Source: Acidimicrobiia bacterium (lineage in GTDB: Bacteria; Actinomycetota; Acidimicrobiia; Spongiisociales; UBA5794). Taken from it: a DNA stretch of 35,839 nucleotides. Each line of letters opens with the position of its first letter. Positions within the stretch are counted from its first letter, which is position 1. This document shows, in pieces, positions 30,041 through 34,752 of this stretch. The notes under the pieces are model-generated. The model saw nothing but the letters and a program-made list of their open reading frames with translations, was not told the origin of the DNA and ran no database searches. The position numbers and the translations under genes were made by a program. Where the stretch lies: assembly GCA_026985095.1 (NCBI GenBank), contig JALSQW010000055.1, forward strand, positions 1-35,839, given 5' to 3'.

Positions 30041-30922
30041 TCAAGGCAAACCCCGGTCGGACCAGCGGGGGACCCTGTTGCGGATCCCACCGAAGCCCAG
30101 CTCGTCGCACAACGCCACGAAACGATCCTCCGGCACACCGGACCATCGAAGGTCGCCGAGGTTCTCGGCGAGAGGCACGTCGAGGCGGAGCTGGGCGAGG
30201 TACCGGTACACCAGCGCGTCGCCCATGCGTTCGATGAGGGTGGCGGAGAGCTTGTCGGCGGCGCGGGGCTTGACCTGCCACTGATGGACGTCGACGGGGA
30301 TGTCCTCCACATGGGGGTACCGGGCCAGGACGACGGCGGCCGACTTGGCGCCCCATCCGGGGAGGCCGGGGATGCCGTCGGCGGTGTCACCGACGAGACC
30401 GAGGAAGTCGGGGATGGAGGACGGGGCGACGCCGAAGCGTTCGACGACGGCGTCGGCGTCGACGAAGCGTCCCTTGCGTCGGTCGTAGCCGACGATACGG
30501 TCGTGGCCGTAGAGCTGACACAGGTCCTTGTCGGGCGTCATGACCACGACCTGCTCGACGTCGTGATGCCACCGCACCGCGGCAGTCGCCAGGGCATCGT
30601 CGGCCTCGTACTCGTACATGGACCACACCGTCATCCCGAGCGCCTTCATGGCTCGTTCGGCGAGCGGGAACTGGGCGAGCAGTTCGGGATCGATGCCTTC
30701 GCTCGTCTTGTAGCCGGAGAAGACGCGGTTGCGGAACGACTCGATGACCGAATCGAACGCGGCTGCGACGTGGGTGACGCCATCTTCGGCGAGGAGCCGC
30801 AGCATGCTGGACATGAGGCCGTGCACGGCGCCGACCTCGCGACCGTCGGGCGCCGTTCGGCTGGGCGCCCCGAAGTGGGCACGGAACAGCTCGTAGGTGC
30901 CGTCGACGAGATGGAGCTTCAC
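30041..30922 (-). CDS. 5'-3' exonuclease / flap nuclease domain protein
   Basis: The 293-residue protein is a stand-alone version of the 5'-3' exonuclease domain found at the N-terminus of DNA polymerase I. The metal-binding acidic residues appear in order: D7, D57 (AAAFDSV), E106 with D108-D109 (YEADDA), D131/D133 (TPDKDLCQL) and D179/D182 (VGDTADGIPG). A helix-hairpin-helix (GLPGWGAKSAAVVL) and a clamp region 'RNRVFSGYKTSEG' are present. It should remove flaps or RNA primers. The gene is 26 bases from the ABC ATPase on the same strand and divergent from the next gene. Confidence 0.92.
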   Translation of the reverse strand: MKLHLVDGTYELFRAHFGAPSRTAPDGREVGAVHGLMSSMLRLLAEDGVTHVAAAFDSVIESFRNRVFSGYKTSEGIDPELLAQFPLAERAMKALGMTVWSMYEYEADDALATAAVRWHHDVEQVVVMTPDKDLCQLYGHDRIVGYDRRKGRFVDADAVVERFGVAPSSIPDFLGLVGDTADGIPGLPGWGAKSAAVVLARYPHVEDIPVDVHQWQVKPRAADKLSATLIERMGDALVYRYLAQLRLDVPLAENLGDLRWSGVPEDRFVALCDELGFGGIRNRVPRWSDRGLP

Positions 30923-30977: not shown

Positions 30978-31514
30978 ATGGACGATGACCGGACCCGTCG
31001 GACCGTGGTGGGCCCTGCCCGCCTACGGAGCCCGTGGTTCTCGCACCGTTGGGAGATGGATACGACCGACGGGACGATCGCCGCGATGACCCGTCATCCC
31101 CGCGACCACACCTCGACCGTGGAGCTGGCGGACGGGACGCGATGGCGTCTGGTCCCCACGGGATGGGGACTGATCCGGGCGATCGAGGACGGCGACGAGA
31201 TCGCCCGCATCACTCGCCGGTCGTGGTTGGGCCGTCACTGGGATCTCACCGCGACCACCTGGCACTATCGCCTCACCTCCGATCCGATGCCGAGACGCTG
31301 GCACGTCACCGTCGGGGATCAGGTGGTCGCTCGGATCTCGGGGTCGTTGATCTCGTACAACCGGGTCGATATCGACGCACCCATCGGGGTCCCTCTGGCG
31401 GCGACGATGCTGGCGTGGCACGTGATCGCCCGACCCTGGGAGGCGGCATCCCGGCCCGCGGGCCTCATCCCGGTCATCGAACCCGCTCCTCGCCCGGCCG
31501 CCGGCGCCGCATGA
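30978..31514 (+). CDS. Beta-rich protein of unknown function
   Basis: The 178-residue protein has no signal peptide and no membrane helix. Regular short strands rich in Trp, Arg and Thr (for example TRWRLVPTGWG, HWDLTATTWHYRLT, RWHVTVGDQVVARISG) suggest a beta-sandwich or barrel, loosely like tubby/LURP-one-type folds, but I cannot confirm it. A hydrophobic C-terminal helix (PLAATMLAWHVIARPW) follows. ATG 30978 fits the residue composition; there is no strong Shine-Dalgarno. Its stop overlaps the start of the sulfurtransferase gene (ATGA), so the two are coupled. Confidence 0.72.
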   Translation: MDDDRTRRTVVGPARLRSPWFSHRWEMDTTDGTIAAMTRHPRDHTSTVELADGTRWRLVPTGWGLIRAIEDGDEIARITRRSWLGRHWDLTATTWHYRLTSDPMPRRWHVTVGDQVVARISGSLISYNRVDIDAPIGVPLAATMLAWHVIARPWEAASRPAGLIPVIEPAPRPAAGAA

Positions 31515-32341
31515 CCGCGTCCCTCGTCGCCGTCGACGAACTCGTCGACCGCATCGGTGACCCGGACATGGCGGTGGTCGACTGCCGATGGTGGCTGGAG
31601 GATCCGGATCGAGGGTATCGAGAGTACCTGGCGGGCCACATCCCCACCGCGGTGTTCGCCTCGCTCGACGACGACCTGACCGCCCCGACCGGACCCGGCC
31701 GGCATCCGCTCCCGACGCCCCGGGCGTTCGCGGACCGCATGAGCGACCTCGGCATCGGCCCCGGACGGCACGTGGTGGCGTACGACGACCGGGGCGGCGT
31801 GTTCGCGGCACGCGCCTGGTGGATGCTGTCGGCGCTGGGCGTCGCCGCCGCGCTCCTCGATGGAGGACTGCAGGCATGGCAGCACGCCGATCTCCCTGTC
31901 ACCGACGAGATGCCGACCCCAGCGCCGGTCGACTGGCCCGAGACGCTGCCCGACCGCTTCCCCGGTACGGTCGAACGGGCGGAACTCCGCCGACGCCGCT
32001 CGGAGATGGTTCTGGTCGACGCCCGTGCCCGGGAGCGATACCGGGGTGAGGTCGAGCCGATCGATCCGATCGCCGGGCACATCCCGGGAGCGATCAACGT
32101 CCCCTATGCCGGCAACCTGACCACCGACCTCCGCATGCGTTCGGCCGTCGATCTCCGTGCACGGTTCGTCGCGGCGGGCGTCGCCACCGGTGACCGCACC
32201 GTCGTCTACTGCGGCAGCGGCGTCACGTCGTGCCACCACGTCCTGGCCATGGAGCTGGCCGGCCTCGGACGCCCCTTCCTGTACCCGGGTTCGTGGAGCG
32301 ACTGGTGCACGTCGGGCGAACCCGTCGAAACCTCCTGCTGA
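31511..32341 (+). CDS. Thiosulfate/3-mercaptopyruvate sulfurtransferase (two rhodanese domains)
   Basis: The 276-residue enzyme has an N-terminal, inactive rhodanese domain (about 1-130; VVDCRWWL and AGHIPTAVFASLDDDL) and a C-terminal active one (about 150-276; VLVDARARERYRGEVEPIDPIAGHIPGAINVPY). The active-site loop is CGSGVTSC with Cys234. CGSGVT is usual for mercaptopyruvate sulfurtransferases, while thiosulfate rhodaneses more often have CRxGxT, so the former is slightly favoured. It moves sulfane sulfur to a thiol acceptor in the cytoplasm. ATG 31511 overlaps the upstream stop. Confidence 0.93.
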   Translation: MTASLVAVDELVDRIGDPDMAVVDCRWWLEDPDRGYREYLAGHIPTAVFASLDDDLTAPTGPGRHPLPTPRAFADRMSDLGIGPGRHVVAYDDRGGVFAARAWWMLSALGVAAALLDGGLQAWQHADLPVTDEMPTPAPVDWPETLPDRFPGTVERAELRRRRSEMVLVDARARERYRGEVEPIDPIAGHIPGAINVPYAGNLTTDLRMRSAVDLRARFVAAGVATGDRTVVYCGSGVTSCHHVLAMELAGLGRPFLYPGSWSDWCTSGEPVETSC

Positions 32342-32943: not shown

Positions 32944-34752
32944 TCAGAATCCCAGTGCCGCCGCGGCACGATCGAGCGTCTGGCCTCCTCGAAGCACGGG
33001 TTCGAACAGGTCGCCGTAGCGACGAAGCCGCTCCCAGATGGTGGCGATGTCGAGATCGGTCGGGCGCACGGTGCCCAACTCGTCCCATGTGATCGGCGTC
33101 GATACGGGCGCCCCTTCCCTGGGCCGCACCGAGTAGACGGACGCGATCGTCTTGCCGGCCGCGTTCTGGTTGTGGTCGATGAGCACCTTGGGACCACGTC
33201 GGGCAACGTCCCACTCCATCGTCGCGTTATCCGGGTCGGCCTCGACGATCATCCGGCCCAGTCGCTCCACGAACCGGCGCACCGTCGCATAGTCGTGAAC
33301 CGGCTCGATGGGAACATAGATGTGGATCCCGGACGCTCCGGACGTCTTCGGATAGGCAGCGAGGCCGAGCCTCTCGAGGAGCACCCGGACGAGACCGGCG
33401 ACGTAGACGACCTGATCCCACCCGGCGCCCTCCTGCGGATCGAGGTCGAAGACGGCGAAGTCGGGGGCGTCGGGGTGCTGCACCCTGCTGAGCCACGGGT
33501 GCATCTCGATGCACCCGAGGTTGGCGAGCCACAGGAGAGCATCGAGGTCGGGGGCGGTACAGAACTCGATGGTCTGGCTGCGATGTTCCGACGGCATCGG
33601 GGCAGTGACGATCCACTCCGGCGCGTGGGGTGGGCAGCGCTTCTCGTAGAAGGACTCGCCGGTGATGCCATCGGGGAACCGGGCGAGCGACAACGGGCGC
33701 CCGGCCAGATGGGGCAGCAGGACCGAACCGATCGAAGCGTAGTACTGGATCAGGTCGCCCTTCGTGTAGCCGTCGTCGGGCCAGAACACCTTGTCGATGT
33801 TGCCGAGGCGGAGCGGCCTGCTGAGGCCGGCAGGAACGAATCGCCCACCGACGACCCGGACCGGGATCGGGTCGGGGAAGTCGACCGCTCCGCTGGTCAG
33901 CAACCGACGTCCGGAAGACGGCTCGGTCCGTGCCCGGCGTTCGCCGGCGCGAAGGTCGGCGAGGATGGCGTCGTGACTCGAGTCGTCCTTGGCTTCGGAG
34001 ATGATGATCGTACGGAGCCCGGCTTCGGCGACGGCTTCGGCGAGGCGATCGGCGCGGAGCGTGCCTTCGCCGTAGGCCACGTGGCGAAGCTCGCCCGTGG
34101 ACCCGAAGACGTTGTCGGTGAACTGGCTGTGGAGGGGATCGATCGCCCAGCCGGGGAACTCCTCGCGCAGGAACGCGATGACGGTCCGGAACGCCTCTGT
34201 GGTCGCGAGACCCCCGCGGGACTTGGCATGGATGTGAGCCCAATCGACGACGGGTCGAACGAACGTGTAGCGGCGGGCGATGAGGGCGATATCGCCAAGT
34301 GATCCGAAGGCCCGGTCGGTTCCGGTCGTCTCGAGCCCGAGTGCGACGCCGAGGGTGCGGATCTTGGGGCCGATGCGGTCGAGTCCGTCGGTGACGAGTC
34401 GGTGCAGCTCTTCGGCCGGTCGGCCCTTCACGTAGCCGGTGTGGGCGACGACGGTGTGGGCTCCGAGTGCGTGCCCGAGCTTCATCGTGTGCTCGAGCGC
34501 CGAGAGGGCCCGCATCCGCTTGTCGGCGTCGTCGACGGTGAGGACGGCGAAGTAGGGGGCATGGACGGACACGGCGATGTTCCTCTGCGCGGCGGATTCG
34601 CCGAAGGTCCGGCATCGGCGTTCGTTCCATGGGAAACCATGAACGAACGCCAGTTCGTAGGCGTCGTGGCCGCGCTCGATCAGCCCGTCGAGGAAGGTGT
34701 CGTCGTCGACGCCGGAGGGTGGCATCCCGGAGATCCCGAACCTGATGAGCAT
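32944..34752 (-). CDS. Endonuclease IV-like TIM barrel fused to LigD-type polymerase domain
   Basis: One uninterrupted 602-residue frame joins two DNA-repair modules. Residues 1-262 are an archaeal-type endonuclease IV-like (xylose-isomerase-like) TIM barrel: RFGISGMPPS, SVHAPY (H64), VVAHTGY (H104), LGLETTG (E141), VVDWAHIHA (D170, H173), LHSQFTD (H208), RHVAYGEG (H224), ISEAK (E253). This covers eight of the nine E. coli Nfo metal ligands; the Asp229 equivalent is Leu222, as in archaeal-like members where the motif also differs. A linker (about 263-312) joins residues 313-602, a LigD polymerase domain of the primase superfamily: GNIDKVFWP, YTKGDLIQYY, GESFYEKRCPPH, FDLDP (D436, D438), SGASGIHIYVP (H477), KVLIDHNQN (D526), YSVRPREGAPVSTPITWDEL. 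Both active sites look complete. No Ku or ligase gene is near. ATG 34752 begins the TIM barrel exactly. Confidence 0.9.
   Translation of the reverse strand: MLIRFGISGMPPSGVDDDTFLDGLIERGHDAYELAFVHGFPWNERRCRTFGESAAQRNIAVSVHAPYFAVLTVDDADKRMRALSALEHTMKLGHALGAHTVVAHTGYVKGRPAEELHRLVTDGLDRIGPKIRTLGVALGLETTGTDRAFGSLGDIALIARRYTFVRPVVDWAHIHAKSRGGLATTEAFRTVIAFLREEFPGWAIDPLHSQFTDNVFGSTGELRHVAYGEGTLRADRLAEAVAEAGLRTIIISEAKDDSSHDAILADLRAGERRARTEPSSGRRLLTSGAVDFPDPIPVRVVGGRFVPAGLSRPLRLGNIDKVFWPDDGYTKGDLIQYYASIGSVLLPHLAGRPLSLARFPDGITGESFYEKRCPPHAPEWIVTAPMPSEHRSQTIEFCTAPDLDALLWLANLGCIEMHPWLSRVQHPDAPDFAVFDLDPQEGAGWDQVVYVAGLVRVLLERLGLAAYPKTSGASGIHIYVPIEPVHDYATVRRFVERLGRMIVEADPDNATMEWDVARRGPKVLIDHNQNAAGKTIASVYSVRPREGAPVSTPITWDELGTVRPTDLDIATIWERLRRYGDLFEPVLRGGQTLDRAAAALGF

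Follow-up and report, generated by a model that had tools for sequence, protein, structure and literature searches.

Within the window, by which we mean the whole stretch of 35,839 nucleotides analysed here, an intact, stop-free frame of 602 codons, started by ATG, lies at 32944-34752 on the minus strand and joins an endonuclease IV-like domain to a LigD-type polymerase domain. The features of the locus are as follows.

30041..30922, minus strand: stand-alone PolA-type 5'-3' exonuclease (PF02739 and PF01367)
31034-32341, plus strand: rhodanese gene, a conserved neighbour of the fusion
32944..34752, minus strand: complete fusion gene, 602 aa (ATG start, stop at 32944-32946, full-length homologues)
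33958..34752, minus strand: N-terminal endonuclease-IV-like TIM barrel, aa 1-265 (Pfam AP_endonuc_2, PF01261, at aa 27-263, E 1.7e-26, 93.9 bits, cut-off 31.1; VIA-align Z 24.4 to 2x7v)
33820..33957, minus strand: linker, aa 266-311, the least constrained part (dN/dS 0.57; lowest model confidence at aa 277-281)
32947..33819, minus strand: LigD-type primase-polymerase domain, aa 312-602 (Pfam LigD_Prim-Pol, PF21686, at aa 330-583, E 2.1e-91, 306.5 bits, cut-off 27.4; LigD polymerase-domain model TIGR02778, 251.2 bits, passing its cut-off of 214.7; Z 38.8 to 5dmu and 37.8 to 6sa0)

The sequence-only reading had proposed a single continuous frame, and no stop or frameshift was found between residues 262 and 313, with a domain search on the whole frame placing PF01261 in the N-terminal half and PF21686 in the C-terminal half, both above cut-off. 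The same two-domain frame recurs in dozens of independently assembled genomes, and the fusion is therefore neither a product of chance nor an assembly chimera or frameshift artefact. Against the closest homologue, dN/dS is 0.19 in the barrel and 0.07 in the polymerase, indicating purifying selection on both halves. Both folds are predicted in an AlphaFold2 model of the fusion with a mean pLDDT of 88.2, built from 30 sequences, 10 of which reach into the barrel.

The modelled barrel aligns with T. maritima endonuclease IV (2x7v) with an rmsd of 2.8 over 263 residues. Endonuclease IV structures score Z 23–24 against the model, with sugar epimerases just behind at Z 22–24, so that the fold alone cannot decide the identity of the barrel. 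By sequence, this half is weakly matched to solved structures, with endonuclease IV and UV endonuclease chains outranking sugar isomerases in a PDB profile search, apart from MJ1311, the best match, and TTHB071, which is also among the matches. To our knowledge neither MJ1311 nor TTHB071 has a proven role. The positions corresponding to the metal site of E. coli endonuclease IV (Nfo) are listed below, all on the minus strand.

34561..34563, minus strand: H64, equivalent to Nfo H69, metal 1, in the motif HAPY (invariant; also in the stand-alone and Nfo homologues shown)
34441..34443, minus strand: H104, equivalent to Nfo H109, metal 1 (invariant)
34330..34332, minus strand: E141, equivalent to Nfo E145, bridging the metals (invariant; profile alignment)
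34234..34245, minus strand: D170 and H173 (D-x-x-H), equivalent to Nfo D179 and H182 (invariant)
34123..34125, minus strand: Q210, probably matching Nfo H216 (register deduced from the strand ends of the model and the HxHFSD motif)
34081..34092, minus strand: E221-x-x-H224, replacing Nfo D229-x-H231 (invariant; alignments)
33994..33996, minus strand: E253, equivalent to Nfo E261 (invariant)

The N-terminal half had been credited with nearly all of the endonuclease IV metal ligands, which is a fair description, with seven of the nine present and invariant (H64, H104, E141, D170, H173, H224, and E253, whose E. coli counterparts are H69, H109, E145, D179, H182, H231, and E261). The remaining two are altered. 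The position of Nfo D229 is occupied by Leu or Ile, with an invariant Glu one residue further away, and position 210, which probably corresponds to Nfo H216 to judge from the strand ends of the model and the HxHFSD motif, although HMM alignments pair H208 with Nfo H216 instead, is Gln in every member of the order and His in families f52 and f55, in the reversed fusion, and in the stand-alone barrels described below. With its altered ligand motifs (E-x-x-H and position 210), the barrel is best regarded as a separate endonuclease-IV-like subfamily and not as Nfo, and its sequence places it in an E-x-x-H subfamily of its own within the endonuclease IV superfamily. A canonical Nfo identity is ruled out by scores far below the family cut-offs (TIGR00587 32.7 against 129.65; NF002198 33.4 against 244) and by a true Nfo (L001) encoded separately in the same genome, which scores 369 bits against the cut-off of 244; most relatives encode a true Nfo as well. 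The proposal of an endonuclease IV-like barrel thus stands as regards a DNA-repair-type barrel, and fails as regards endonuclease IV proper. In the barrel tree, the branches leading to canonical Nfo and to the isomerase-like row are very long (7 and 10 changes per column), making the placement of both relative to the fusion clade uninterpretable, and the tree shows only that Nfo is remote from the fusion barrels.

The polymerase half has sequence matches among solved structures to M. smegmatis Prim-PolC, a Methanocella PolDom, and the M. tuberculosis LigD PolDom, and Prim-PolC and NHEJ PolDoms are the structures nearest to its model (Z 35–39). Its nearest multi-domain relatives are LigDs of the Pol-PE-Lig type, at ~50% identity. 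The residues aligned with the M. tuberculosis PolDom are given below.

33439..33447, minus strand: D436-x-D438, catalytic metal aspartates (invariant; aligned to M. tuberculosis PolDom aspartates)
33175-33177, minus strand: D526, third catalytic aspartate (invariant; aligned to M. tuberculosis PolDom)
33760..33801, minus strand: N318, K321, and K331, equivalent to N13, K16, and K26 of M. tuberculosis PolDom (alignment to 2iru)

Residues D436, D438, and D526 do not vary among 30 relatives, bearing out the polymerase metal aspartates proposed for the C-terminal half, and both E141 and D436, singled out earlier as residues for mutation, lie at the positions then named. Lysines 321 and 331 are invariant and N318 is nearly so in the alignment of relatives. 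N13, K16, and K26 are the residues with which the M. tuberculosis PolDom binds the 5'-phosphate across a gap or break. As judged by these alignments, the polymerase half keeps the three catalytic aspartates and the 5'-phosphate pocket of the NHEJ and gap-filling Prim-Pols.

Six-frame searching of the genome that contains the window, together with 59 relatives, recovered a near-full-length fusion in 34 of the relatives, spread over eight families of one Acidimicrobiia order (50–87% identity), and the fusion in split or partial contigs of two further relatives. Beyond the order, fusion homologues of 41–47% identity occur in f52 and f55, other families of the phylum, in a phylum-wide sample, and a scan of 84,980 species genomes placed all further copies in Acidimicrobiia or Actinomycetes records. 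Searching with the barrel profile alone revealed the same two domains in family f48 in a single frame of ~600 residues but in reversed order, polymerase then barrel. These reversed fusions (L145, L146, and L147) lie near yraN/yifB-like genes, named by reading of the sequence alone, and in one f48 genome (G323) a mutation or a sequencing error has broken the reversed frame into two ORFs. That these two families have been joined more than once, and in either order, speaks more strongly than anything else here for their acting together. Stand-alone barrels of ~275–320 residues were also recovered, in this search and a further one, from family f56, one Thermoleophilia record, and Clostridia. A scan of viral contigs with the barrel gave no relative, and a viral origin is not supported; plasmid records matched the polymerase part only, none with 80% coverage. 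In genus g6 (L169 and L170) the polymerase is kept without the barrel, and DLDP is changed to DLDR.

The sequence-only reading regarded the fusion as undescribed. We found no description of the architecture in open-access PMC papers, with subscription journals outside the scope of the search, and none of the curated family models in the libraries searched describes it. The fusion also proved commoner than that reading had known, being lineage-wide and present in both domain orders. Both halves belong to known superfamilies, and the barrel subfamily is the freshest part.

The gene sits beside rhodanese, carbonic anhydrase, and acylphosphatase genes, and these immediate neighbours offer no functional hint. 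At 10 of 14 loci from the order, the fusion is accompanied by the exonuclease and rhodanese pair, with the exonuclease 2–6 kb away. Cleavage at an AP site leaves a 5'-deoxyribose phosphate, for which reason the fusion would pair naturally with a 5' nuclease, and the 5'-3' exonuclease is a candidate for 5'-end processing. Elsewhere in the genome, LigC is encoded beside a Prim-PolC-like gene (L006), together with a second lone PolDom (L007), Ku (L094), a LigD-type ligase, and a lone LigD phosphoesterase (PE). As had been anticipated, the fusion chain has no ligase of its own, and candidate ligases (LigC and the LigD-type ligase) are encoded elsewhere. Contigs C9, C12, C42, C63, and C66 of G000 carry the end-joining machinery as single-domain genes (Ku, LigD-type ligase, lone phosphoesterase, lone PolDom) together with a LigC/Prim-PolC pair, and no full-length LigD was seen among the G000 contigs.

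The closest parallel is found in mycobacteria, where endonuclease IV used as bait co-purifies LigC, LigC binds both Prim-PolC and EndoIV, and EndoIV is the best end-processor for Prim-PolC/LigC repair in vitro (PMC5663958). In B. subtilis, LigD together with an AP endonuclease can carry out short-patch repair (PMC4770248). The fusion would join the same two activities, as predicted here, for the filling of short gaps after end-cleaning, and mycobacterial Prim-PolC is among the best structural matches of its polymerase (Z 37.8). The mycobacterial complex, however, consists of separate proteins held by LigC and uses a canonical Nfo, whereas the fusion is a single chain with a barrel of a different subfamily, whose polymerase is closer to LigD Pol (~50%) than to the Prim-PolC of its own genome (40%). 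With DNA ligase D (Pol-PE-Lig or Lig-Pol, TIGR02776) the fusion shares a homologous polymerase domain in which the catalytic and 5'-phosphate residues are kept. Unlike LigD, the chain has neither a ligase nor a LigD phosphoesterase and scores 256.8 bits against the TIGR02776 cut-off of 373.2, ruling out a full LigD identity. The barrel resembles Nfo (TIGR00587/NF002198) in its fold and in the conserved metal ligands, and departs from it in family scores, in E-x-x-H for D-x-H, and in Gln at the probable H216 position. Closer in subfamily and motifs are the stand-alone E-x-x-H barrels of Clostridia and Thermoleophilia-like genomes (L142-L144 and L161-L166), with scores of 107–203 bits to the fusion-barrel profile, which differ in being unfused and, in the genomes looked at, in lying away from the PolDom gene. 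The stand-alone barrels of f56 adjoin phosphomannomutase-type genes.

Taken together, we think it probable that the fusion is a bifunctional excision-repair or end-processing enzyme that cuts or cleans and then fills. The barrel would incise next to an abasic site or turn a blocked 3' end into a 3'-OH. The Prim-Pol joined to it, anchored through the 5'-phosphate across the gap, would add one or a few nucleotides, probably ribonucleotides, and the nick would be sealed by an ATP-dependent ligase encoded elsewhere, either LigC or the LigD-type ligase. This reading draws on the conservation of one chain, purifying selection, the association in both orders, and the presence of partners in the genome, as well as on the invariance of most of both active sites in alignments and on the two modelled folds. 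The mycobacterial EndoIV/LigC/Prim-PolC system is a direct precedent for a cut-and-fill mechanism. From these lines we infer that the barrel is catalytic and acts on an AP site or a blocked 3' end, as well as which nucleotides are preferred and how one domain hands over to the other. Incision of AP sites by the barrel is plausible and putative, as the barrel falls in the distinct E-x-x-H subfamily and not in Nfo proper. Several observations speak against the bifunctional reading. The AP-site task is not vacant, since the genome already has a canonical Nfo, and the barrel lies below the curated Nfo cut-offs, with a probable ligand, H216, apparently replaced by Gln across the order and D229 by a neighbouring Glu. 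Additionally, a polymerase without the barrel exists in genus g6, and the co-occurrence with Ku leans towards end joining. A self-contained enzyme for abasic sites or blocked ends, combining incision or end-cleaning with gap filling in one polypeptide, built on an E-x-x-H barrel subfamily and assembled in two domain orders, is proposed tentatively, as a real possibility.

Ku-dependent end joining, in which the barrel would clean the 3' ends of double-strand breaks in place of the LigD phosphoesterase, the polymerase would fill, and a separate ligase would seal, is in our judgement rather unlikely. The polymerase is LigD-like with its 5'-phosphate pocket kept, and among the 59 relatives Ku is found with the fusion more often than expected (29/36 against 8/23 without the fusion; P 7e-4, ignoring kinship). 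Full-length LigD, with Pol and PE in one frame, is present in 5/23 relatives without the fusion and 0/36 with it, and only 4/36 fusion relatives have a PE domain, with kinship likewise ignored and some of the genomes incomplete. The Ku enrichment leans towards end joining, and the Ku, LigD, and PE counts allow an end-joining role as well. No Ku was detected, however, in seven fusion genomes, of which four have a completeness of at least 91%, so that the fusion is not tied to Ku-dependent end joining; furthermore, the fusion gene does not adjoin Ku, and the window's genome already possesses Ku, a lone PolDom, a LigD-type ligase, and a lone PE domain.

The remaining explanations concern the barrel. 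A catalytically altered or dead barrel, acting mainly as a DNA-binding module that recognises lesions or gaps for the polymerase, would fit the fixed change of the probable Zn2 ligand H216 to Q210 across the order, the lack of Asp at the D229 position, and the loss of the barrel from genus g6. We nevertheless regard such a module as improbable, with the seven ligand positions and E-x-x-H invariant across all fusions, His retained at position 210 in families outside the order and in the reversed and stand-alone forms, and the low dN/dS of the barrel. An incidental fusion, with a barrel that acts on small molecules in the manner of a sugar isomerase or otherwise, appears very improbable. Epimerases fall only slightly short of Nfo in their match to the model, and Thermoleophilia-like stand-alone barrels lie beside a phosphomannomutase-type gene; however, the profile ranking given above favours the DNA endonucleases, the metal-1 and metal-3 histidines H64, H104, H173, and H224 are as in Nfo and have no equivalents, apart from the shared D-x-x-H, in the one isomerase-like sequence compared (L003, a paralogue on a long branch), and the barrel has been joined to a DNA polymerase repeatedly and in both orders. 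A placement of the barrel in a sugar-isomerase clade, which would have undone the earlier proposal, was not found, although structure alone cannot separate Nfo from the epimerases.

Beside end joining, a role of Prim-PolC and LigD Pol in base excision repair has so far rested on pull-downs and reconstitution, and a natural covalent link of an endonuclease-IV-type barrel to a LigD-type polymerase, found order-wide and in both domain orders, offers independent genetic evidence of coupling between the two steps. The fusion also provides one purifiable protein on which this coupling can be tested. Furthermore, it points to an uncharacterised barrel subfamily with a likely DNA-repair job that stands alone in Clostridia, from which some of the closest stand-alone PolDoms likewise come.
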